Shown here: in pieces, positions 7,891 through 32,820 of the stretch | Position numbering within the stretch: the first letter of the stretch is position 1 | Layout: the number at the start of each line of letters is the position of its first letter | Assembly: GCA_021773245.1 (NCBI GenBank) | Contig: JAJFKK010000180.1 | Location: forward strand, 1-32,820 | Source: Gammaproteobacteria bacterium | GTDB lineage: Bacteria; Pseudomonadota; Gammaproteobacteria; Eutrophobiales; Eutrophobiaceae | Direction of reading: 5' to 3' | Length of the DNA stretch: 32,820 nucleotides | Notes under the pieces: model-generated | Seen by the model: the letters and a program-made list of their open reading frames with translations, nothing else | What the model was told of the DNA's origin: nothing | Databases searched by the model: none | Made by a program: the position numbers and the translations under genes

Positions 7891-8052
7891 TATACTATCT
7901 AGAGGATGATCCAGTGAATATCCCTGTTTATCAGGTTCGGATTATTGATTAGATGCTTCAAATTTCAAAATAACATGTAATGCTATCTTTCTATCGATTT
8001 TATTTAAGAAACGATAACTTCTAACTGGCACATTACGTGCAAGTTTTTGTGC

Positions 8053-17941: not shown

Positions 17942-18769
17942 TTAGTAACCAGGCCTATGTAAATTTGCTTTTTGAACAATCCGCGTTGCTATTTCTTCTA
18001 TAGAAATAGAACTCGTATCTAAATAAGGGATATCTTCTACTTCAAATATTCCTAATGCCTGTTGTATTTCTTTCTTACATTGTTTTAAGGAAGCATAAGG
18101 ACTATCCGGACGCCTTTCCTGACGGATACGATACAATTGTTCCTGTTTTATACTTAGCCCGATTATTTTATTTTTGAAAGGCCTTAATAGATCCGGCAGT
18201 TTTTCCTTTGCTAAATCTTCTTCTATTAGAGGGTAATTAGCTGCTTTGAGCGAGAACTGCATAGCCAGATAAAGTGCAGTTGGCGTTTTCCCACAGCGGG
18301 AAACACCGATGATTATTACATCTGCATTTTCCAAAGAACGATGGCTTAAGCCATCGTCATGGTTTAAGGCGTAATTCAATGCATTTACACGATAATGGTA
18401 AAGGTCATAATCTCTAATGCCATGCATTCGACCTTTTTTATGAACAGACTGGCAATCTAGGATGCTTTCTAATGGGCTGATAAAGGTAGCAAATAGATCA
18501 AATACTTTAACACCACTGCTTGCAATGATTTCACGAAGCTCATCGTCGACCAATGTACTAAATACCAATGGCGAAGTACTCGATTTGTTTTCTAGTTTTT
18601 TTATTTTTTCAACGGCACTGTATGCTTCTTTAGTGTTTCTCACATAGGGTACGATACTACGTTTGAACTCAATATCAGGAAATTGAGTTAATAATGTTTC
18701 ACCGAGTACTTCTGCAGTTAAACCGGTACCGTCTGAAATAAATAAAACATTCTTTACTGTATCTTTCAT
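17942..18769 (-). CDS. ppsR: PEP synthase regulatory protein (kinase/phosphorylase)
   Basis: This is the DUF299-family bifunctional enzyme that switches PEP synthase off by ADP-dependent phosphorylation of a threonine beside the catalytic histidine, and on again by phosphate-dependent removal. The 275-residue protein has the family opening VLFISDGTGLTAEVLG and the P-loop GVSRCGKTPTALYLA (about residues 155-169), followed by KAANYPLIEEDL and the conserved IGLSIKQEQLYRIRQERRP. Its ATG shares one base with the ppsA stop (TAATG), so the target and its regulator are translationally coupled. Length and motifs are normal. Confidence 0.95.
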   Translation of the reverse strand: MKDTVKNVLFISDGTGLTAEVLGETLLTQFPDIEFKRSIVPYVRNTKEAYSAVEKIKKLENKSSTSPLVFSTLVDDELREIIASSGVKVFDLFATFISPLESILDCQSVHKKGRMHGIRDYDLYHYRVNALNYALNHDDGLSHRSLENADVIIIGVSRCGKTPTALYLAMQFSLKAANYPLIEEDLAKEKLPDLLRPFKNKIIGLSIKQEQLYRIRQERRPDSPYASLKQCKKEIQQALGIFEVEDIPYLDTSSISIEEIATRIVQKANLHRPGY

Positions 18770-21174
18770 TAAACAGCTTTAGAGTGGCTCACCGAGTTTG
18801 GAATACTTACAATATCCATTTTTGAAAGTTTTAACCATGTTTCTATTACTGTATCTGGGTTTAGGGAAATACTCTCAATATTTTGTTCTACTAACCATTC
18901 GGCAAAATCAAAATGATCCGATGGCCCCTGACCACATATACCAATGTACTTATTAACATTCTGACAGGAATCGATGGCTTTCTTTAACATTATCTTTACG
19001 GCAGGATCTCGTTCATCAAAGCCCTCTGAAATTAATCCGGAATCCCTGTCCATTGCCAGTGTTAATTGAGTCATATCATTTGAGCCGATTGAGAACCCAT
19101 CAAAATGTTTTAGAAATTCATCTGCTAACAGTGCATTCGAGGGAATTTCACACATCATGATGATCTTGAGTTCATTTTCTCCACTTCTTAATCCATTTTT
19201 ATCCAATAATTTAATTACTTTTTCTGCTTCAGAGACACGGCGTACAAACGGTATCATCACTTGTACATTTGTCAGCTTCATTTCATCGCGCAATTTTTTT
19301 ACAGCCTGACATTCCAGTTCAAAACAGGCCTGAAACGTTTCAGATACATAACGTGAAGCACCGCGAAAACCAAGCATTGGATTTTCTTCATTCGGCTCAT
19401 ACAGATCACCGCCGATCAAATTGGCATATTCATTTGATTTAAAATCTGACAACCTGAGGATAACCGGTTTAGGGTAAAATGCTGCTGCGATTGTTGCGAT
19501 TCCTTCTGTTAGCTTTTCGACGTAATAATTTACCGGACCATCATAGGCAGCAATTTTTGGATCAATTTTACTTTTCAGCTCCGGTGTTAAATGTTCATAA
19601 TCAAGTAGAGCCTGAGGATGAATTCCAATCATGCGATTGATAATAAATTCTAGGCGGGCGAGACCAACGCCGTCGTTAGGTATCTTTGAAAATGTGAAAG
19701 CGCGATCGGGGTTGCCAACATTCATCATGATCTTGACTGGTTTCGATGGCATTTCATTCAGCTGAATTTCATCAATTGAAAATTTCAGAGTTCCTCTATA
19801 AATATAGCCGGTATCACCTTCTGCACATGATACGGTTATATCTTCCTTAGTCTTGATTAAATCAACGGCATTTCCGCAGCCGACTACAGCAGGCACACCA
19901 AGTTCTCTTGCAATAATTGCGGCATGGCATGTTCTTCCGCCGCGGTTGGTTACAATCGCCGATGCACGTTTCATAACGGGCTCCCAATCCGGATCGGTCA
20001 TATCAGTAACAAGTACTTCTCCTTCCTGTAGCTTATCCATGTCATCGATATTCATAATGACTCTTGCCTTACCTGCTCCTATACGTTGCCCGATACTTCT
20101 ACCAGTAATAATTTTCTCACCTTTCTCCTTGAGACTATATTGCGTCATAACATTAGCGGAATGACTTTGAACTGTTTCTGGTCGGGCCTGGACAATGTAC
20201 AGTTTGCCATCAAGCCCATCCTTGGCCCATTCAATATCCATAGGCTGTTTGTAATGTGTTTCAATGGTCATTGCTATGCGAGCAAGATCCATAATTTCAT
20301 TATCTGAAAGGCAAAATTTATTACGTATGTCCATAGGGACATCTTCAGTAACGATACCTTGTGCATTCTCAGTTTGATCGTAGACCATGCGTATTTCTTT
20401 ACTGCCGGTATTGCGACGCAGGATGGCGGGATTATTTTCGACTAAACATTTTTTATAGACATAAAATTCATCGGGGTTAACTGAACCTTGCACGACTGTT
20501 TCCCCCAAACCGTAACTACCCGTAATGAATACGACGTCACGAAAACCTGATTCTGTATCAAGCGTGAACATGACACCGCTGGCGGCAAGATCGCTACGAA
20601 CCATTTGTTGAACACCTGCAGAAATAGCAATCTGTTCATGTGCAAATCCCTGGTGGACTCTATAAGCGATAGCTCTTGCATTATAAAGAGATGCAAATAC
20701 TTCTTTTATCTTTAGTAAAATATTTTCAATGCCGCTGACGTTTAAAAAAGTTTCTTGTTGTCCGGCAAAAGAGGCATCAGGCAGATCCTCTGCTGTTGCT
20801 GAAGATCTTACGGCAACGGCCAAATCATTGCCGTACTGCTCAGTCATTTTATTAAATGCATTGCGTATATCATGTTCAATACTTTCAGGAAATTCTGTAT
20901 CGATAATGCATTTTTGTATTAATACGCTTGCTTCTGTTAAAGCTGCAATATCATTAATATCCAGTTGTTGCAGAATATTCTGGATTGTTTCTGCTAAACC
21001 TGCCTGGGCAATAAAACTGTTATAGACATGGGTCGTTGTTGCAAAACCACCTGGTACCAAGACACCCGTTGAAGATAAATTAGAAATCATCTCTCCCAAT
21101 GAAGCATTCTTTCCACCTACAAGGTTGATATCATTTTTATTTAAGTGCTCTAAAGCAATTACGTTTTCGTTCAT
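18769..21174 (-). CDS. ppsA: phosphoenolpyruvate synthase
   Basis: PpsA converts pyruvate, ATP and water to PEP, AMP and phosphate and is the entry to gluconeogenesis during growth on lactate, pyruvate or alcohols. The 801-residue protein has the N-terminal ATP-grasp pyruvate-phosphate dikinase domain ([34 protein letters not shown]), the phosphohistidine domain with [19 protein letters not shown] and the catalytic histidine at about 417, and the C-terminal PEP-utilising barrel ending in [20 protein letters not shown] and [12 protein letters not shown]. Length is normal. It is followed directly by ppsR. The ribosome binding site is weak (GGAAA). Confidence 0.96.
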
Positions 21175-22846: not shown

Positions 22847-22863
22847 GGCAAGTTATATGCCAG
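22847..22863 (-). promoter_or_regulatory. candidate sigma-54 promoter of the aldehyde dehydrogenase
   Basis: On the minus strand CTGGCATATAACTTGCC matches the -24/-12 pattern with GG-N10-GC. A start near 22836 would give a leader of about 38 bases containing the ribosome binding site. The sequence also forms TGGCA-N7-TGCCA. Confidence 0.65.
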
Positions 22864-23439
22864 AGGAAGTTGAATGTTCTTCATGTAAATTGGGTTCATA
22901 TACTAAATTGCTGATAATTCAAATCATTACGAATGTAATTAAGTTAAATATTAGGAATATACCCTTTAGTTAAAGAGGACATTCTCTGTTGCACATATTT
23001 GTTTCGTGTAACTTACTGTTACAGGTGTTTACATCAAACGGTTACATAATTAAGTCTTACAAAAGGAAAGTTGTAATTGATTGCATATATCTAGAAAAAA
23101 CCGTTCTAAAAAATAGAATACCCAGGCTTCATCAATGCTTCTATCCAATAACGAATTGAATTTTGTGTCCCTGATTGTTAATGGTGTTTATATCAAAGGT
23201 TAAACGTATAAAAATTATAGCCAACATTTGTCTGTCGCAGCAGCGACACTTGTTTGTTTTTTCATACACTATTTATATAGCGTTTCATCATGATTATAGA
23301 TGTTAATTGTTAAGACTTTAAAAATATTGATTTTTAATCAATATTCATAAAAAAACTAATAAAATAAAGGTGTTAGTCTATAGCATGGATAATTTTATTA
23401 AGCTTGTTTTTATACTGTAGATAGAAACAGTATAAGTAA

Positions 23440-23456
23440 TTGGTATATTAATTGCT
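23440..23456 (+). promoter_or_regulatory. candidate sigma-54 promoter of the PQQ alcohol dehydrogenase
   Basis: TTGGTATATTAATTGCT has GG at 23442-23443 and GC at 23454-23455, ten bases apart. A start near 23467 would give a leader of about 150 bases. It matches the site before the UreI-like gene at 15 of 17 positions. Confidence 0.65.
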
Positions 23457-23616
23457 CCATGTACTCTTGGTTGAAACTTAACTTAATTGCTATTGAAGGT
23501 AATGTTTCTTATTCAATTTTTTAAGCGATAGTTTTGTCATTGTTAAATAAGTAATAAACAAAAAACTGTATGGTTTTTTCAAAACATAACAAATATACGA
23601 GGGGAGGACATGAATA

Positions 23617-25380
23617 ATGTCTAACGTAACTTTAAAAAAACTAGCATATACACTAGCCACGTTTTTAGTGGTGAGTGCAAGTGCTAATGTTCAAGCAGCA
23701 GATGTTACTACTGCGAGAATACTCAAAAATGATGAAGCGCAAAATTGGCTGTCTCATCACAGAACGCTTGATGGTCGACGATTTTCACCACTTAAGAGTA
23801 TTAACAAGAAGAATGTTAAGAACCTTAAAATGGCTTGGACTATGCATTTGGGTGGATTGGAAGGTGTTGAGGACTATCCTCATGGTGGACTTCAAGGTAC
23901 GCCAATCGTTGAAGACGGTATCATGTACGTCACTGATGGTTGGGGTTCAGTTTACGCGATAAAGGTCACTCCGAATGGTGGTGATCTGTTGTGGAAAATG
24001 GATCCTGAGACCGATAGGGATTTCGTAGGACCAACCACATGTTGTGGTGTTAATAACCGTGGTATAGCTCTATGGAATGATAAAGTAGTGTCTCATACGC
24101 TTGACGGTCGATTGGTTGTTACCAATAAAACGACCGGGGAAATAGAATGGGAACGTATCGTAGCTAATCCAGGTATATCTGAATCCCTTACTGCTGCTCC
24201 ATTAATTGTCAAAGACATGGCTATTACTGGTGTCTCTGGTGCGGAATACGGTATGCGCGGTTGGTTGGCAGCAACAGACCTGAATACCCAAAAAGAAGTG
24301 TGGCGTTTCAAAACCATTCCAGAACCAGGTGAGCCTGGCCATGAGACATGGAAAGATGATCATAATGCTTGGGAGAACGGCGGTGGTTCAACTTGGGTTG
24401 TCGGTTCATACGATCCTGCTAACAACGCTATAATCTGGGGTGTCGGGAATCCTGGACCAGACTGGGATCCTGAATACCGCCCTGGTAACAACCTTTACAC
24501 CAATAGTGCTATCTCTCTTGATGCGGACACGGGTAAATTAAACTGGCACTACCAGTACACACCAAATGATCCGTATGACTATGATGGTGTAAACGAAAAT
24601 ACACTGGTCACAATTAACCATAAGGGCAAAAAACGTGAAGTTATGCTACACGCTGATCGTAATGGCTACGCCTATGCTCTGGATAATAAAACCGGTGAGT
24701 TCGTTTATGGTGAAGCGTTTGTTGACAAAATGACATGGACTAATGGTCTTGACCCAAAGACAGGGTTGCCATTGACGTACGATCCAAATTCAGATGTTCA
24801 ATTGTATGCACCAGGAACGGCACCTAACCGTAAAACTAAGGCGGGTATTTCTTGCCCGGGTAATATGGGTGGTAAAAACTGGCCGCCAACATCATACAAC
24901 CCAATATTACACCTCTGGTATATCCCAGTCATCGAAAGCTGTAATACAATGACTGCTGCAGAGACTATTCCTGGTACCCACAAACATAGAAATTGGTGGA
25001 CAGGTGGTGGACCTAGCCAACACGAGCAGATCGTTGGTAGTGTTAAAGCGGTTGATCCAGACACGGGTAAGGTTGTTGCTAAATATCCAATGAAATATCC
25101 AAACCTGGGTGGCACACTCGCAACAGGTGGAGATTTGGTGTTTACCAGCCGTCCTGAAGGCGTACTTGCAGCACTCGATGGCAAAAGTCTGAAAGAACTT
25201 TGGACTTTCAATACTGGTGCTGGTCTGAACGCTCCTCCAATGAGCTTCAGTGTTGATGGCAAACAGTATGTTGCTGTTCTGGTAGGTTTAGGCGGAGCTT
25301 GGCCAAGATGGTTTGTTGACGGCACCAAAGGGCTAGAAAAGCTTAGTTATGGTTCGTCACTTTATGTTTTTGCTTTATAA
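23617..25380 (+). CDS. PQQ-dependent alcohol dehydrogenase with lanthanide-type DYD motif
   Basis: The 587-residue protein has a signal peptide (cleavage likely after VQA, about residue 27) and the eight-bladed propeller of methanol/ethanol quinoprotein dehydrogenases, oxidising alcohols in the periplasm with PQQ. Key residues are present: the vicinal cysteine pair C142-C143, metal ligands E210 (GAEYG) and N278 (GNPGP), the catalytic aspartate D321 in PYDYDGVN, and an arginine in ADRNG. The second aspartate, D323, two residues after the catalytic one, is the established mark of lanthanide-dependent enzymes (XoxF, PedH, ExaF); calcium enzymes have Ala or Ser there. Several stretches differ from ordinary XoxF, so I do not assign that name. 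GGGGAGG precedes the start. The substrate may be methanol, ethanol or another alcohol. Confidence 0.92.
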   Translation: MSNVTLKKLAYTLATFLVVSASANVQAADVTTARILKNDEAQNWLSHHRTLDGRRFSPLKSINKKNVKNLKMAWTMHLGGLEGVEDYPHGGLQGTPIVEDGIMYVTDGWGSVYAIKVTPNGGDLLWKMDPETDRDFVGPTTCCGVNNRGIALWNDKVVSHTLDGRLVVTNKTTGEIEWERIVANPGISESLTAAPLIVKDMAITGVSGAEYGMRGWLAATDLNTQKEVWRFKTIPEPGEPGHETWKDDHNAWENGGGSTWVVGSYDPANNAIIWGVGNPGPDWDPEYRPGNNLYTNSAISLDADTGKLNWHYQYTPNDPYDYDGVNENTLVTINHKGKKREVMLHADRNGYAYALDNKTGEFVYGEAFVDKMTWTNGLDPKTGLPLTYDPNSDVQLYAPGTAPNRKTKAGISCPGNMGGKNWPPTSYNPILHLWYIPVIESCNTMTAAETIPGTHKHRNWWTGGGPSQHEQIVGSVKAVDPDTGKVVAKYPMKYPNLGGTLATGGDLVFTSRPEGVLAALDGKSLKELWTFNTGAGLNAPPMSFSVDGKQYVAVLVGLGGAWPRWFVDGTKGLEKLSYGSSLYVFAL

Positions 25381-25404
25381 ACTAGAGTTACATACAAGCT
25401 GAAT

Positions 25405-25440
25405 ATACATCCCTTCCTTTCGAGGAAGGGATGTATTTAA
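25405..25440 (+). terminator. strong terminator after the alcohol dehydrogenase
   Basis: A perfect 14-bp stem (25405-25418 with 25423-25436) closed by a TTCG loop follows the stop codon by about 24 bases; the following bases are TTAATT. The stem is also complete on the other strand, but no minus gene ends here. Confidence 0.85.
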
Positions 25441-25601
25441 TTAAGACGACATAAAGAAGTAATTTATGTTCCCCAATAATGACAATCAAATTAAGAAACC
25501 ATTAAGATACTGCTGTGTCTCACACTTTAGCGTTTCTATATATTCAAGTTTAACGATACAAATTAACAACCGAATCTAATAATAGATAGGAATTTCAAAT
25601 C

Positions 25602-26444
25602 ATGTCTCTACACTACTTACCCTTTAAACTTTTTGATATTTTATTATTTGCTTTTCTATTGCTAATCTCAGGAACATTAACTGCCCAAGCTCATAATAAT
25701 CCCGAATTTAAAAATGAATTGCTCAAAAGCGTTAACATCGAACCTTTAAGTTCTTCTGGTAGTGAAGAATTTACAGTGGCATTACCTAAAGATTTAATAC
25801 GAGTCGTATGGAGCATTGACTCAGCAGATAAGGACAACATAGTTTTTTCTGTAAAGTCGGGGGATAAGATTATAGCCGAAGATATAAAGAATGGCGCAGA
25901 AACCCTACCAAATATACTTACTGACAATAAATTTATGATTGTGAATGTTAAAGGAACAGAAACGACATTCAAATTAGATGTTCTGGCAAGATTGATAGTA
26001 AAAAAGGAAAAAAAATCAGCTGATACTGATGCTTTTTTAGCAGGAAGAAAAGTGTATAGAAAAGCAAATTGTGTGGGATGTCACAAATGGCATGGCTCAG
26101 GCGGTGGAGGCTATGGAGGCGCAGCTCTTTCTCTAAGAACAACCGGTCTGGACAAAGAGGGATTGAAATACCTGATTCGTTGCGGCAGACCATCAACAGG
26201 AATGCCCTACCATGGTCGTAAAGCCTACAAGGGAGATGATACTAGTTGTTACAACACTACGGCAGAGAAACTTGGTAAAAACATACCGCCTCGGGCAAGA
26301 AGCTTGCTGAGCGAAAGACAATTAAATGTCGTTGTAGATTACGTGGAAAACGTAGTTCAAGGGTCAGGAGAAATAACACTAGAACAATGCGTTGTGTATT
26401 GGGGTGAAAAATCTCGCCAATGCGACGAATTTAGAAATAATTAA
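25602..26444 (+). CDS. monohaem cytochrome c with an unknown N-terminal domain
   Basis: The 280-residue protein has a hydrophobic leader (about 1-30, ending near AQA), then about 110 residues rich in beta-type sequence that I do not recognise, then a class I cytochrome c domain: haem site CVGCH (C157, C160, H161) and a likely sixth ligand M201 in STGMPYHGR. The tail has two more cysteines (EQCVVYWGEKSRQC) that could form a disulfide. Its place right after the PQQ dehydrogenase suggests that it accepts the enzyme's electrons in the periplasm, as cytochrome cL or c550 do elsewhere. It has its own upstream gap after a strong terminator, so it is probably transcribed separately or by read-through. 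AGGA lies before the ATG. Confidence 0.82.
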   Translation: MSLHYLPFKLFDILLFAFLLLISGTLTAQAHNNPEFKNELLKSVNIEPLSSSGSEEFTVALPKDLIRVVWSIDSADKDNIVFSVKSGDKIIAEDIKNGAETLPNILTDNKFMIVNVKGTETTFKLDVLARLIVKKEKKSADTDAFLAGRKVYRKANCVGCHKWHGSGGGGYGGAALSLRTTGLDKEGLKYLIRCGRPSTGMPYHGRKAYKGDDTSCYNTTAEKLGKNIPPRARSLLSERQLNVVVDYVENVVQGSGEITLEQCVVYWGEKSRQCDEFRNN

Positions 26445-26451
26445 TATAGCT

Positions 26452-27117
26452 ATGAAATATTTTTTACTATCCTTTTTAGCCCTGGTTTCTCTTCCAATAG
26501 CCAGCGAGACAGTAGAACCCTTTACTGGCAGTAATAAAACGGAACTACGAGAAATTTCACTTGGTATGCATGTCAAGGATATACCAGATAACCGTTTCAA
26601 AAACTATTCCTGTGCCAGCGATAGCAAGGAATTAAATAATCTCACCGACTTTGAGCAATGCTCGTCAGATGGTCATGGTTTATATGAAGTAGGTCTGCAA
26701 TATGATACTTCTGAAAACGAGTGGGCAAAAATTAATGATAAGTTAGCTGGAACGACAATAGGTGGGCATCCAGTAATACTCTCTATCATGATAACCAAGC
26801 AGGGATTAGTGCAGGGAATCCGGGCATACACTGACCCGGATGCTCGCACCTACTTGAAACGACAGGCTTATCTATTATCGAAGCGTGTAAAAAGTCATTA
26901 TGGAACGGTTAATTGGGAATGCATTGATAAAGAACCGGGAGATGGAGGAAATAAAAAATTTGGTCCTGTCTTTATTGATCAACATTGTATAAAAACATTT
27001 GATGATAAAAAAATTGTTGTCGAATCAAAATTCTATCGCGCGCCTAACCAAACGGGCAAGGAGCACACAAACTCATCAACTCTGGAAATATTTAGCCTGG
27101 TACCCATCCCTGATTAA
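26452..27117 (+). CDS. unknown exported protein in the cytochrome operon
   Basis: I do not recognise a family. The 221-residue protein starts with a signal peptide (MKYFLLSFLALVSLPIASE, cleavage near IAS) and should act in the periplasm. It contains cysteines at NYSCAS, EQCSSDG, WECIDK and QHCIKT, four in all, enough for two disulfides, and no haem motif. The opening LREISLGMHVKDIPDNRF resembles the strand-and-turn found in small periplasmic proteins that begin 'LGM...', but that is weak. The ATG at 26452 is chosen because it begins the signal peptide and sits seven bases after the cytochrome stop; the link to that gene implies a shared role in alcohol oxidation. Confidence 0.65.
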   Translation: MKYFLLSFLALVSLPIASETVEPFTGSNKTELREISLGMHVKDIPDNRFKNYSCASDSKELNNLTDFEQCSSDGHGLYEVGLQYDTSENEWAKINDKLAGTTIGGHPVILSIMITKQGLVQGIRAYTDPDARTYLKRQAYLLSKRVKSHYGTVNWECIDKEPGDGGNKKFGPVFIDQHCIKTFDDKKIVVESKFYRAPNQTGKEHTNSSTLEIFSLVPIPD

Positions 27118-27134
27118 CAGCGTATAGATTTCTT

Positions 27135-27488
27135 ATGAAAGATTACAAGGGTTCATGTCATTGTCGAGAGCTTACCTTTTCTTTTAAGTGCAATCACATC
27201 AATAAAGGACTTCGTTGTAACTGTTCGATCTGTATCCGTAAAGGAGCAATCATGTCGTCAGATATGATTGCTTCTGAAGAGCTTAAGATAAACTCAGGTT
27301 GGGAATCTTTATCTATGTACCAATTTGGAACTCATGTTGCCAAACATTATTTTTGTAAAAGCTGTGGCATTTATCCATTCCATGAAACGATGCGTAAACC
27401 AGGATTTTACAGGGTAAACCTGGCTTGCATTGATAATATTAATCTTGATTCTTTGGAAGTAGAAACCTTCAACGGTAAAGCTTTGTAA
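27135..27488 (+). CDS. GFA-family (glutathione-dependent formaldehyde-activating-like) protein
   Basis: The 117-residue protein has the zinc-binding pattern of the GFA/CENP-V fold: GSCHC (C8, C10), CNCSICIRKG (C28, C30, C33) and FCKSCG (C74, C77), with an intact C-terminal strand region. Named members are said to help glutathione react with formaldehyde, but most family proteins are uncharacterised. Its position 17 bases after an exported protein and the cytochrome of a PQQ alcohol dehydrogenase makes an aldehyde-handling role attractive, which is inference. No signal peptide, so it is cytoplasmic, unlike its two operon neighbours. Confidence 0.85.
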   Translation: MKDYKGSCHCRELTFSFKCNHINKGLRCNCSICIRKGAIMSSDMIASEELKINSGWESLSMYQFGTHVAKHYFCKSCGIYPFHETMRKPGFYRVNLACIDNINLDSLEVETFNGKAL

Positions 27489-27814
27489 GTTCAAGCATAT
27501 GCTTTATCTCTCTAAAATTTAAACAGCGTTTAAACATATTGTGACAGCTGTAGCATTCATTTATAACAATATAGCTATTAGCACAGACGAATAGATAAAC
27601 TGGTTTATTACTAGAATGGTTATGCTTCATAACGGATCAAGTCATTGATTTAAAATAATATTCCCCTTTACTTAGCTTTCCATATCGTTACGTATAAATT
27701 AGCAGTCGTTACTTTGGTATAGTTATTGCTCTTTTACTCCCCTGTAAGCTAGCCAAGATCAGTTTATTAAAAAAATAATTATTAATTACTTACAAATATC
27801 TTAGGGGAAAAACT
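27489..27814 (+). promoter_or_regulatory. 326-bp control region of the UreI-SoxYZ pair
   Basis: No gene is seen. It contains the palindrome AAGCATATGCTT (27493-27504), an inverted repeat TTTAAAC-AGC-GTTTAAA (27518-27534) and two TCGTTAC copies exactly 21 bases apart (27685-27691, 27706-27712) that abut the sigma-54-like promoter. Confidence 0.5.
27714..27730 (+). promoter_or_regulatory. candidate sigma-54 promoter of the UreI-SoxYZ pair
   Basis: TTGGTATAGTTATTGCT has GG (27716-27717) and GC (27728-27729) ten bases apart. It is nearly identical to the alcohol dehydrogenase site. A start near 27741 gives a leader of about 74 bases that includes the AGGGG ribosome binding site. Confidence 0.65.
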
Positions 27815-28353: not shown

Positions 28354-29187
28354 ATGTCTAATAGATTATGTATTCTAATATTTTTATCTGTATTCACCCT
28401 GGCTTGCCAGGGTGAAACAGAATCTGAGGATCAACGTTTACTTGATTCAGATAAAGTCTGGGAAGAACGTATCAAGCCAGCATTTTTTTCCGGACAAACT
28501 GTCTTTTTAGATGAACAACATGAAGTGATTCAATTAAAAGCGCCCTACAAGGCAGAGGATCCAGCTACAGTTCCCATCTCAATTCATTTTCATGCTCCGA
28601 CAACTAAAGATGATTATATTAAAAAAGTCTACATCTTCGTTGATAAAAACCCGTCTCCAGTAACAGGTATTTTCGATTTTACCAAACCGGGTAGTAAAGC
28701 AGACCTTGCTTTGAGAATTAGGGTGAACGAATTTAGTTATGTCCGTGCAATAGCCGAGACAGTTGATGGTAAGCTTTATATGACAAAGAGCTTTGTAAAA
28801 GCTGCGGGTGGTTGCTCAGCTCCTCCTCCAGCTGGACCAGCTAAATTTACAGGTAAAATGAAAACTCGCATTATGAGCAAAGTGAGTTTGTCAGAACCGA
28901 ATCTTGTGCAATTAAAAATTAAACATCCAAATTATTCAGGGATGGAAGCCGCTGCACCCGGGAAAGAAAAACCAAAGGCTTATTTCATCAAGAATTTAAA
29001 TGTGACGCTTAACGGAGAATCAATACTGAATGCAGATCTGACTTTTTCAATAAGTACCGATCCAAGCTTCAGGTTTTACATTACACCGGAGCAGTATGGT
29101 GTACTACAAATCACAGCAACTGATACAAAAGATGCTGTTTTTACGCATAATCATGATGTCGACGAGCATAATGTTTCAAGATATTAA
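28354..29187 (+). CDS. quinoprotein dehydrogenase-associated SoxYZ-like carrier lipoprotein
   Basis: The 277-residue protein resembles the fused SoxY-SoxZ carriers found near PQQ dehydrogenases. The first half is SoxY-like, with a carrier-type cysteine C154 in AAGGCSAPP at the position of the SoxY GGCGG tail; the second half (from about residue 165, TRIMSKVSLSEPNLVQLKIKH) is SoxZ-like and ends in a His/Asp-rich tail HNHDVDEHN. A signal MSNRLCILIFLSVFTLAC with a lipobox TLAC implies a lipid anchor. The ATG at 28354 is chosen over an upstream TTG because it begins the signal. In the Sox pathway such cysteines carry sulfur; what this version carries for the quinoprotein is unknown. It follows the UreI-like gene by 29 bases. 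Confidence 0.85.
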   Translation: MSNRLCILIFLSVFTLACQGETESEDQRLLDSDKVWEERIKPAFFSGQTVFLDEQHEVIQLKAPYKAEDPATVPISIHFHAPTTKDDYIKKVYIFVDKNPSPVTGIFDFTKPGSKADLALRIRVNEFSYVRAIAETVDGKLYMTKSFVKAAGGCSAPPPAGPAKFTGKMKTRIMSKVSLSEPNLVQLKIKHPNYSGMEAAAPGKEKPKAYFIKNLNVTLNGESILNADLTFSISTDPSFRFYITPEQYGVLQITATDTKDAVFTHNHDVDEHNVSRY

Positions 29188-30608: not shown

Positions 30609-31262
30609 CTATTCATTGATAATAATAACATGAAGTTTTTTAGGGCCGTGTGCACCTATTTCAATTTCATATTCTATATCTGCAGTACGACTCGGACCTG
30701 TAATAAGATTAATTGTTCTGGGTAGTTCACGTTTATCTGCGCGCAGAAGTTTCCAGACATCTTCCATAGACTTAACAATGTTGGTGGAGTTTAAAACAAT
30801 CAAATGATGTTCTGGTAAGAAATTCATCCCAGTAGGAGAGGAGGGTGATGAAAGCAGAACCAGCGTTCCTGTTTCTTCTATTCCCATCGATGCATTGGTA
30901 ACAGATACAATAAGCGATTCCGCGTCATATTGTGTCGTAACATCAGCTTCATTCCAGTCAATGTCTTGCAGAGTTGAATTTTCTGGAATAGTTACAGTTG
31001 TTTTTATTTGATTTTTTGCAACATACTGATGCACTTCTTTAACTAATTCATTTGTATTGCTAATAATACTAACAGTAGCACCAACATCCTTTAGCTTAGA
31101 CAAAAATAACTTTAGATCGGAAACATAATTAATTTTTGCTTTTTCTTTCATGCTTTGGTTTAACTCCTCGCTAATATTCAGCTTAGAAATTTCTTTTTTT
31201 TCAGTCACACAACGGATCTTTTCTAGAATTTCGTCACGAGAATTTTGATTATTATTATTCAC
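30609..31262 (-). CDS. lutC: lactate utilisation protein C (LUD domain)
   Basis: LutC is one of three parts of the LutABC iron-sulfur L-lactate oxidation system. The 217-residue protein carries the LUD/YkgG fold, with ESLIVSVTNASMGIEETGTLVLLSS and LLRADKRELPRTINLITGPSRTADIEYEIEIGAHGPKKLHVI given here only in part: the end GPSRTADIE and GAHGPKKLHV are the conserved family finish. It starts at GTG, which overlaps the lutB stop by eight bases and follows AAAGGAAAA. It is third in the order lutA-lutB-lutC. Confidence 0.92.
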   Translation of the reverse strand: MNNNNQNSRDEILEKIRCVTEKKEISKLNISEELNQSMKEKAKINYVSDLKLFLSKLKDVGATVSIISNTNELVKEVHQYVAKNQIKTTVTIPENSTLQDIDWNEADVTTQYDAESLIVSVTNASMGIEETGTLVLLSSPSSPTGMNFLPEHHLIVLNSTNIVKSMEDVWKLLRADKRELPRTINLITGPSRTADIEYEIEIGAHGPKKLHVIIINE

Positions 31263-32682
31263 ACTTTTTTTCCTTTTGCTCTAACCATAGTGACTGAAAT
31301 GTTTTACCTTGCGGAGCTGGAAAGTTACGTGAGCTTGTCCATCCACGCGCAAGCGGAAGGAATTTTATGCTTCCTTTTCTTGCAGTAATTAAACTAAGTA
31401 AATAAATTCCGGTATTGCTTGCCCAGTGATAAGCTTTGGGATGTTTTGCGAATTGCGCCCAAATTTTTAGAGCAAATCGGGACGTTTTTGAACCTTGATT
31501 TTTTTTGAATTGGCGAACGCGTAATGACCTTAATAATTTAGGCAAAGGTATTTTTACAGGACAAACAGACTCGCAACGTCCGTTTAAGGTACAGGCGTTT
31601 GGTAAATCACCGGCTTCTTCCAAACCCAGTATGGCCGGTGTTAATACGGCTCCCATAGGGCCGGGGTAAACCCAACCATAAGCATGTCCGCCTATCGAGC
31701 CATAGACTGGACAATGGTTCAGACACGCACCACAACGAATACAACGTAACATTTCATTTAATTCACTATTTAATAAATCGGTGCGGCCATTATCAATTAG
31801 CACCATATGCATTTCTTCAGGGCCATCCAGATCGACATCACGTTTTGGACCTGTAAAAAATGATGTATAGGCAGTGATTTCCTGTCCAGTGGCACTTCGA
31901 CCTAGCAACCTGACTAATAGAGAAACATCATCCAGTCCGGGAACTATTTTTTCCAGGCCAGCAGTAACAATATGCACTTTGGGTAATGTACTGCATAAAT
32001 CGCCATTGCCTTCATTAGTTACTACAACCGTTGAACCTGTTTCAGCAACCAGAAAATTTGCACCTGTTATACCTACGTCGGCATTTAAAAATTTTGTACG
32101 CATGATCTTTCTGGCTTCAGCAACCAACTCGGACACTTCTGTTAACTTTTTATCGCAGCCGTATTTTTTATGATGTTTAGAAAATAAATCGATGATTTGC
32201 TGACGGGTTTTATGCACACATGGCACAATGATATGGCTCGGTGCTTCATTAGCTAATTGGACAATGTATTCGCCAAGGTCTGTTTCGATTGGTTCGACAC
32301 CGGCTTCTTCCAATGCTTCATTTATACCAATCTCTTCTCCCACCATCGACTTGCCTTTGACGACGGTTTTTGCATCATGATGTTTGCAAATATCAACAAT
32401 GATTTTACGTGCCTCACTGGCATCCTTGGCCCAATGCAGTTGGCCGCCTTGCGCCGTAAAGTTTTTTTCAAATTCTTCCAGATAATAGTCAAGGTGTGAA
32501 AGAGTATGTTGCTTTATTTGTTTGCCTTTCTCTCTAAGCAATTCAAAATCAGTAACTAGCTTAATTGCATTCAAGCGGTTATGTACCAAACATTTTTTTG
32601 CGGTCAATAATGATTTTTGTAATTCTTTATCAGCTATTGATTTGGCAACATTTTTTTTGAATTGTCGTGACAGTGGCTGCAT
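31255..32682 (-). CDS. lutB: lactate utilisation iron-sulfur protein B
   Basis: LutB combines an N-terminal LUD domain with a ferredoxin-like C-terminal part and passes electrons in lactate oxidation to pyruvate. The 475-residue protein shows KTVVKGKSMVGEEIGINEAL and the GITGANFLVAETGSTVVVTNEGNGDLCS stretch (given in short) of the LUD domain, then two 4Fe-4S motifs, CIRCGACLNHCPVYGSIGG and CTLNGRCESVCPVKIPLPKLL. The C-terminal 60 residues have the usual LutB tail (PLARGWTSSRNFPAP). Overlap with lutC and a 15-base gap to lutA show one operon. Confidence 0.94.
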   Translation of the reverse strand: MQPLSRQFKKNVAKSIADKELQKSLLTAKKCLVHNRLNAIKLVTDFELLREKGKQIKQHTLSHLDYYLEEFEKNFTAQGGQLHWAKDASEARKIIVDICKHHDAKTVVKGKSMVGEEIGINEALEEAGVEPIETDLGEYIVQLANEAPSHIIVPCVHKTRQQIIDLFSKHHKKYGCDKKLTEVSELVAEARKIMRTKFLNADVGITGANFLVAETGSTVVVTNEGNGDLCSTLPKVHIVTAGLEKIVPGLDDVSLLVRLLGRSATGQEITAYTSFFTGPKRDVDLDGPEEMHMVLIDNGRTDLLNSELNEMLRCIRCGACLNHCPVYGSIGGHAYGWVYPGPMGAVLTPAILGLEEAGDLPNACTLNGRCESVCPVKIPLPKLLRSLRVRQFKKNQGSKTSRFALKIWAQFAKHPKAYHWASNTGIYLLSLITARKGSIKFLPLARGWTSSRNFPAPQGKTFQSLWLEQKEKKCE

Positions 32683-32697
32683 ATGATTATGACCTGT

Positions 32698-32820
32698 TCA
32701 TTCAAGCTTTTCGCCGATGGCTGGAATATCTGCCATACCAGCTAATACTTCTACAGTATGAAAACAACGTACAGGTTTCTCCAACCTGTTACACCGACCG
32801 GCAATATTCATTAAGCAACC
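32698..32820 (-). CDS. lutA: lactate utilisation protein A, C-terminal 40 residues only
   Basis: The frame enters from beyond the window and ends at the stop 32698-32700. The 40 visible residues begin GCLMNIAGRC and contain VRCFHTVEVLAG, the usual end of the LutA/YkgE cysteine-rich (CCG) family, where such cysteines ligate iron-sulfur clusters. It lies 15 bases before lutB. Gene order and these residues together support the call although most of the protein is outside. Confidence 0.85.
   Translation of the reverse strand, partial: GCLMNIAGRCNRLEKPVRCFHTVEVLAGMADIPAIGEKLE

Follow-up and report, generated by a model that had tools for sequence, protein, structure and literature searches.

A candidate sigma-54 regulon for lanthanide-type alcohol oxidation with UreI- and SoxYZ-like proteins in a gammaproteobacterium

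The contig JAJFKK010000180.1 (assembly GCA_021773245.1) of a gammaproteobacterium of the family Eutrophobiaceae, 32,820 nucleotides long and referred to here as the window, carries genes for a pyrroloquinoline quinone (PQQ)-dependent alcohol dehydrogenase (ADH), an aldehyde dehydrogenase (AldDH), and a UreI-family channel protein followed by a SoxYZ-like carrier. GG-N10-GC sequences resembling -24/-12 promoters of the sigma-54 type lie upstream of the ADH, the AldDH and the UreI-SoxYZ pair. Judged from the sequence comparisons described here, it is probable (roughly 85%) that the three sites are sigma-54 (RpoN) promoters and form one regulon, in which a DhaR-like activator would control an alcohol system of the lanthanide type. 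The window is exactly one contig (C90) of a 2.73 Mb genome (G000), and flanking genes were therefore sought on other contigs and in other genomes. The genomes used for comparison were Methylophaga sp. NORP93 (locus L043) and G249 (locus L047), together with a further contig of G000, C3 (locus L080).

Genes and predicted promoters of the locus

The features of the locus are listed in Table 1. The best PDB matches of the ADH are 6zcw, which we take to be PedH, and 6zcv. A second aspartate two residues past the catalytic aspartate marks lanthanide-dependent PQQ ADHs of the PedH/XoxF type. This residue is present in the window ADH (DPYDYDGVNE) and in 6zcw (DGWDFDGVNE), whereas 1flg has a serine in its place. 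Since the second aspartate is kept, the term lanthanide-type, which a preliminary description of the window had applied to this ADH, is fair. The DYD and CC motifs were found in all six ADH homologues looked at, and the leader-like N-terminus indicates that the enzyme is probably periplasmic. The AldDH reached no NCBIfam cut-off among the 25 families listed out of 43. Among solved structures, the UreI protein matched the acid-activated urea channel only weakly, over 43 residues (E 0.46).

Table 1. Predicted genes and regulatory elements of the window and of contig C3
Feature	Position	Strand	Remarks
PpsR, PEP synthase regulator	17942-18769		beside PEP synthase
PEP (phosphoenolpyruvate) synthase	18769..21174	-	NF005057/NF049928 over cut-off (PEP synthase and PpsR)
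AldDH, 502 aa	21290..22798	-	PF00171, E 1.6e-149
Predicted sigma-54 promoter, AldDH	22847..22863	-	CTGGCATATAACTTGCC; score 6/7; GG 63 nt before ATG
Candidate upstream activating sequence (UAS)	23233..23248	.	TGTCGCAGCAGCGACA; starts 209 bp upstream of ADH -24 GG
Predicted sigma-54 promoter, PQQ ADH	23440..23456	+	TTGGTATATTAATTGCT; score 7/7; GG 175 nt before ATG
PQQ ADH, lanthanide-type residues (DYDGVNE), vicinal Cys	23617..25380	+	TIGR03075 over cut-off
c-type cytochrome	25602..26444	+	PF13442/PF00034; behind ADH
221-aa protein	26452..27117	+	no Pfam/NCBIfam match
Candidate single UAS half-site TGTGACA	27540..27546	.	176 bp upstream of UreI -24 GG
Predicted sigma-54 promoter, UreI-SoxYZ	27714..27730	+	TTGGTATAGTTATTGCT; score 7/7; GG 99 nt before ATG
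AmiS/UreI-family channel, 169 aa	27815..28324	+	PF02293, E 7e-28, 98.2 bits, cut-off 25
Fused SoxYZ-like carrier, GGCSAPPP arm	28354..29187	+	TIGR04557 (quinoprotein dehydrogenase-associated), 217 bits, cut-off 140
LutC-like, lactate utilisation, LUD domain	30609..31262	-	55% identical in NORP93
LutB-like, lactate utilisation	31255..32682	-	LutA end follows towards 32820
Activator relative, AAA+/HTH_8	contig C3 2397-4340		divergent from lutA

The context of each GG-N10-GC was scored at seven positions (T before GG; Y, A and Y after it; TT before GC; W after it), and each upstream region of 250 bp was dinucleotide-shuffled 2000 times, scores of at least 6 being counted as an estimate of chance. 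All three sequences lie where the preliminary description had placed them and in the orientation given there. The full -24/-12 context that it had ascribed to all of them is present at the ADH and UreI sites, but the AldDH site has a C where W is expected. Scores of at least 6 arose in 0.85% of the shuffles for the ADH and in 0.25% for both the AldDH and the UreI region; over the sites in the window and its relatives the chance per region was 0.25-1.15%. The ADH and UreI sites do agree at 15 of 17 bases, as had been counted, but this likeness, which had been thought hard to explain by chance, results mostly from the fact that both match the sigma-54 consensus. The pattern TTGGYAYNNNNATTGCW has five exact matches in the whole genome, two of which are the ADH and UreI sites; of the other three, one falls within an open reading frame (ORF), and two lie upstream of one, at 332 nt from the next listed ORF and at 53 nt from an ORF of 309 aa. 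With at most one mismatch, 71 matches were obtained, compared with 36 for the reversed control pattern. The specificity of the motif alone is thus only moderate, and conservation is the decisive evidence. In a background set of 89 upstream regions (ORFs of at least 200 aa in the loci at hand, a few of which overlap), 14 score at least 6, and nine of these are assigned here to the regulon.

Conservation of the sites and the activator gene

A -24/-12 site was found in all five orthologous upstream regions of the ADH, AldDH and UreI genes (3/3 in NORP93, 2/2 in G249), as the preliminary description would have it for relatives. In NORP93 the sites lie 118 nt before the ADH (L043:16866), 56 nt before the AldDH (L043:3674) and 71 nt before UreI (L043:9918; score 6/7), and in G249 they lie 125 nt before the ADH (L047:14562, minus strand) and 93 nt before the AldDH (L047:17348); no UreI relative was found among the ORFs of L047. 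Identity to the window proteins is 81% (ADH), 75% (AldDH) and 73% (UreI) in NORP93, and 82% (ADH) and 78% (AldDH) in G249. Gene order differs between the window, NORP93 and G249, and a blastn comparison (word size 7) of the window with L043 aligned the genes and no promoter stretch. Because the sites recur before the same genes where the surrounding DNA has changed, and because an activator gene and its likely binding site are shared as well, they are very probably genuine promoters of the sigma-54 type. The idea that the three sites are accidental look-alikes was rejected because they are conserved in the relatives. RpoN is encoded in G000 (PF04552, E 4.2e-70, 496-aa frame) and was present in 35 of the 40 genomes searched.

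The membership of UreI and SoxYZ, also part of the preliminary description, stands with a qualification. The UreI site occurs in two genomes, in one of them at 6/7, and SoxYZ follows a site-bearing gene in two genomes, but that gene is not the same: it is UreI in the window and the AldDH in G249, where a 57% identical SoxYZ starts 186 nt after it. Further sites were found before the lactate permease of NORP93 (7/7, 47 nt upstream), before lutA on C3 (7/7), before a 421-aa protein of G249 (103 nt upstream), and before its 56% identical relative in NORP93 (at 100 nt, within small overlapping ORFs). The latter two proteins matched no Pfam or NCBIfam family, and the label porin-like used for them here is a guess from size and leader. 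Of the 58 relatives searched for UreI, the other 57 gave no match, and of the 53 family genomes, the other 52 yielded no ADH at E <= 1e-150; the cassette is thus patchy. All ADH relatives from a plasmid search were below 60% identity. Near the regulon, both comparison loci encode a 343/358-aa protein whose family was not recognised (L043 15463-16494 and L047 2983-4059, 48% identical).

A Fis-type activator gene, for which the preliminary description had suggested a search near the cluster in related genomes, was found there in NORP93 and G249, and on the apparently adjoining contig C3 in the genome of the window. The G249 gene (645 aa) lies about 840 nt downstream of SoxYZ on the same contig. 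The NORP93 activator is 64% identical to it, and its gene is on the same contig as L043, by computation about 2.6 kb before the start of that locus. The C3 protein shows 49-50% identity to these two. All three proteins have 645-647 aa, contain PF00158 (Sigma54_activat) and PF02954 (HTH_8, Fis-type), and share a near-identical C-terminal recognition region (NKWNIT.VSK.L..CRATVYRK). The left end of C3 (L080 1-788) overlaps the right end of the window (32033-32820) over 788 bp, ungapped, end to end and with 95.4% identity. This suggests that C90 and C3 adjoin each other and that sequence variation split them in the assembly; the activator gene would then lie some 1.6 kb past the window's end. The activators match the DhaR model NF008485 over nearly its full length with 262-298 bits; this is far below the equivalog cut-off of 551, so that the activator may work like DhaR, without being called DhaR.

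Beside the activator gene on C3, a separate element was noticed on the minus strand (L080, approximately 1912-2074). After a 6/7 -24/-12 site at 2074, no ORF of at least 110 aa follows; instead, a hairpin rich in G+C and carrying a T run (GGCCCCGTTAAGGGGCC) lies downstream, preceded by CCTCCTTT. The fold z-score is -2.0 and there is no Rfam match, and the element is a possible sigma-54-dependent small RNA. A search against Rfam found no family in the window and, on L080, a single tRNA.

Candidate activator sites, pathway and alternatives

The candidate UAS upstream of the ADH is a dyad. It lies 372 bp from the AldDH GG, in the opposite direction, and a terminator scan lists the same positions as terminator-like. 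Dyads also precede the ADH genes elsewhere, as TGTCTCA-N13-TGCGACA at -228 in NORP93 and TGTCGCA-N13-TGCGACA at -217 in G249, and a half-site is found at -172 before UreI in NORP93. Half-sites of the form TGTCNCA/TGNGACA were counted between -270 and -90 in 12 promoter regions picked for carrying -24/-12 sites; for three of these the stretch was shorter, at 134-143 bases. Nine of the 12 regions contained half-sites, 13 in all, whereas 1260 column permutations gave 0.57 on average, and the motif itself alone reaches 13. When the ADH regions were excluded, eight half-sites were left against a mean of 0.44, a number reached by two of the 1260 permutations (the motif included); this is the fairer figure, since the regions were selected for their sites and the motif came from ADH regions. 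Additional 6/7 sites in the window, at a pyruvate dehydrogenase E1 gene (16600, minus), a GGDEF-EAL gene (4598, plus) and the ORF at 8047 (8027, plus), were left out of the regulon, as no UAS half-site was found in the stretches searched. The divergent ADH/AldDH intergenic region also contains two 37-nt direct repeats (23002..23038 and 23161..23197, 78% identical, spacing 159). The first copy includes the palindrome TGTAAC-N5-GTTACA (23007-23023) and is a possible second regulatory site.

In agreement with the preliminary description, the reading as a sigma-54 regulon is supported by RpoN in the genome, the sites kept in 5/5 regions, the HTH_8 activator genes and the shared candidate activator site. 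Several observations weigh against it. Five of the 80 other upstream regions also score at least 6, three of them in loci fetched for activator genes, so that real genomes exceed the shuffle rate. No -24/-12 site precedes the ADH in the three more distant same-phylum genomes, where the enzyme is 60-62% identical. The half-site motif was read by eye from three ADH regions, and no exact half-site occurs in the tested stretch of three of the 12 regions (window AldDH, NORP93 AldDH and G249 porin-like gene). Searching the three genomes for full UAS dyads gave 38 separate positions, which is 1.9- to 3.4-fold what the reversed control gives, and a -24/-12 site is lacking near most of them: 35 were checked in fetched loci, and only the window's own dyad (L116) and one other (L124) had such a site within 40-450 bp, while the remaining three are those before the NORP93 ADH, the G249 ADH and the NORP93 porin-like gene, the last at -522. 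The dyad alone therefore does not define the regulon, and a genome-wide UAS search for further members was dropped as too unspecific. Between UAS and promoter, exact matches for IHF were found in two of the 12 regions; Markov sequences average 0.58, and 36 of 300 reach two, so that IHF receives no support. In the activators themselves, the GAFTGA loop reads GTFTGA (C3, NORP93) or GTFTGG (G249), that is, with one or two substitutions, and a GAF domain was detected in the C3 protein only (E 1.8e-7); none was listed for the NORP93 activator (up to 0.05) or the G249 activator (up to 0.001). The overlap of C90 and C3 could, moreover, represent two copies of lutAB.

In the proposed mechanism, RNA polymerase with sigma-54 would sit closed at the -24/-12 boxes. 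With its N-terminal part, the DhaR-type AAA+/HTH_8 activator would sense an alcohol, a diol or an aldehyde; it would bind TGTCNCA/TGNGACA sites, mostly 150-230 bp upstream, and open the promoter by ATP hydrolysis. The induced set would comprise the PQQ ADH, the AldDH, the UreI-SoxYZ operon and probably lutA, and in the relatives also the lactate permease and the porin-like protein. 1,2-propanediol, or another short diol or alcohol, would be converted via lactaldehyde to lactate, then to pyruvate (Lut or Dld) and, by PEP synthase, to PEP, with UreI as a possible channel for a small neutral intermediate. Of this scheme, the sites, their conservation, RpoN, the activator genes and the half-site enrichment are read from sequence, and binding, inducer and pathway are what we infer.

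The set is repeatedly accompanied by genes for a lactate permease, LutABC, D-lactate dehydrogenase and PEP synthase, which points to lactate as the product and hence to a C3 diol as the substrate; D-lactate dehydrogenase adjoins the ADH in G249, and PEP synthase adjoins the AldDH in NORP93 too. The likeliest substrate is thus 1,2-propanediol or a similar short diol or alcohol, but this is a guess from gene content and, like the points above, a weakness. It is about an even question whether the ADH instead oxidises ethanol, glycols or other alcohols, the lactate genes being neighbours for another reason. Genes with FAD-oxidase, FAD-binding (FAD, flavin adenine dinucleotide) and CCG domains, as in glycolate oxidase, adjoin the AldDH in NORP93 and favour such a pathway, and the recurrence of the lactate genes speaks against it; either pathway is compatible with sigma-54 control. 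By hypothesis, UreI carries a neutral diol or aldehyde. A wider proposal, which we put forward only tentatively and hold to be rather doubtful, is that in a Methylophaga and the two other genomes the regulon links lanthanide-type alcohol oxidation in the periplasm with lactate metabolism in the cytoplasm and is run by a dedicated enhancer-binding protein (EBP) acting at TGTCNCA dyads, while a UreI-family channel lets the small neutral aldehyde or diol pass the inner membrane.

Two further genes of the window follow the ADH. Relatives of the c-type cytochrome follow the ADH in NORP93, G249 and two of the three same-phylum genomes, in the latter between the ADH and a relative of the 221-aa protein. 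Relatives of the 221-aa protein itself lie near the ADH in NORP93, G249, L090, L091 and L092, with 26-31% identity in the three distant same-phylum genomes, and it is likely an accessory protein of this ADH type.

With respect to regulation, the sigma-54 promoters might be served by another activator, for example a second one on contig C173 or a two-component EBP, and hence respond to another signal. Sigma54_activat gave 16 matches in G000, among them several weak AAA+ ones, and the C173 protein is 39-41% identical to the C3 activator with a similar HTH end. We nevertheless consider this unlikely, as among the activators compared the C3 protein is the closest G000 relative of the regulon-side activators of NORP93 and G249 (50%, compared with 38% for C173), and relatives at 39-41% also occur in G045 and G019, genomes without this ADH at E <= 1e-150. 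Slightly less probable again is that only the ADH and AldDH promoters depend on sigma-54 and that the UreI-SoxYZ site is a chance likeness. UreI is found in only one close relative, where its site scores 6/7, and a single exact half-site precedes it in the window; against this stand the 7/7 score here with its shuffle chance of 0.25% for at least 6, the corresponding half-site positions (-176 here, -172 in NORP93), and SoxYZ following the AldDH in G249. Promoters of the sigma-70 type, for which PedR2/EraR offer a precedent in the accessible part of the source (PMC6115532) and a TAGAAA-16-TATATT pair with TG overlapping the ADH site counts further against sigma-54, are very improbable, because sigma-70-like sites occur at chance level (26 compared with 20.9, standard deviation 4.4) and the -24/-12 elements are kept in 5/5 orthologous regions elsewhere.

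Relation to known systems

The DhaR type of activator shares with the proteins described here the combination of Sigma54_activat and HTH_8, the near full-length model match and, in the C3 protein, the GAF domain; it differs in that their scores are well under the equivalog cut-off and the target genes are not the same. AcoR-type EBPs presumably also resemble this activator.

As far as the available part of the source goes, alcohol genes of Clostridiales are predicted to have sigma-54 promoters (consensus TTGGCATNNNNNTTGCT) under the Fis-type EBPs AdhR, SadR and BldR, whose UAS lie for the most part 100-250 bp further upstream (PMC6615313). Fis-type EBPs, upstream UAS and sigma-54 promoters of alcohol genes are thus common to both, whereas the enzymes and the phylum are different. 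In 15 of 39 groups the clostridial UAS consists of TGT and ACA separated by 10-12 bp; the dyad of the window agrees with this as TGT-N10-ACA, but the NORP93 and G249 ADH dyads do not.

The ped cluster of Pseudomonas putida, in the accessible part of its description, contains PedH, PedI and the SoxYZ-like PP_2677 (PMC12997753). A PedH-type PQQ ADH with adjacent cysteines, an aldehyde dehydrogenase and a SoxYZ-like carrier are therefore found together in both systems, but control in P. putida is exerted by PedR1 and PedS2/PedR2, according to the part available (PMC13390443). As far as it was accessible, the main text of PMC12997753 contains neither the term UreI nor the term propanediol. No paper joining lanthanide, quinoprotein and sigma-54 was found in the literature searched, and no such regulon appears in the available parts of PMC13390443, PMC6115532, PMC6778391 and PMC12997753.

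Sigma-54 control of a quinoprotein ADH, together with a LuxR-type regulator, is described for exaA of Azospirillum in the part of the source available (PMC6115532; the reference is also in PMC12826043). Control of a PQQ ADH gene by sigma-54 is the common feature, and the difference lies in the partner, which is LuxR-type there and would here be of the AAA+/Fis kind, with a candidate UAS of its own, and in the several operons with UreI, SoxYZ-like and lactate genes. While sigma-54 control of a quinoprotein ADH itself thus has a precedent in Azospirillum exaA, the activator type, its candidate site and the content of the regulon appear to be new. If the sigma-54 regulon proposed here is real, it would represent a second kind of control for lanthanide-type alcohol oxidation besides the Ped two-component systems; the odd UreI and SoxYZ-like genes would gain a testable place in a defined regulon, for which an activator and its likely binding site are named.

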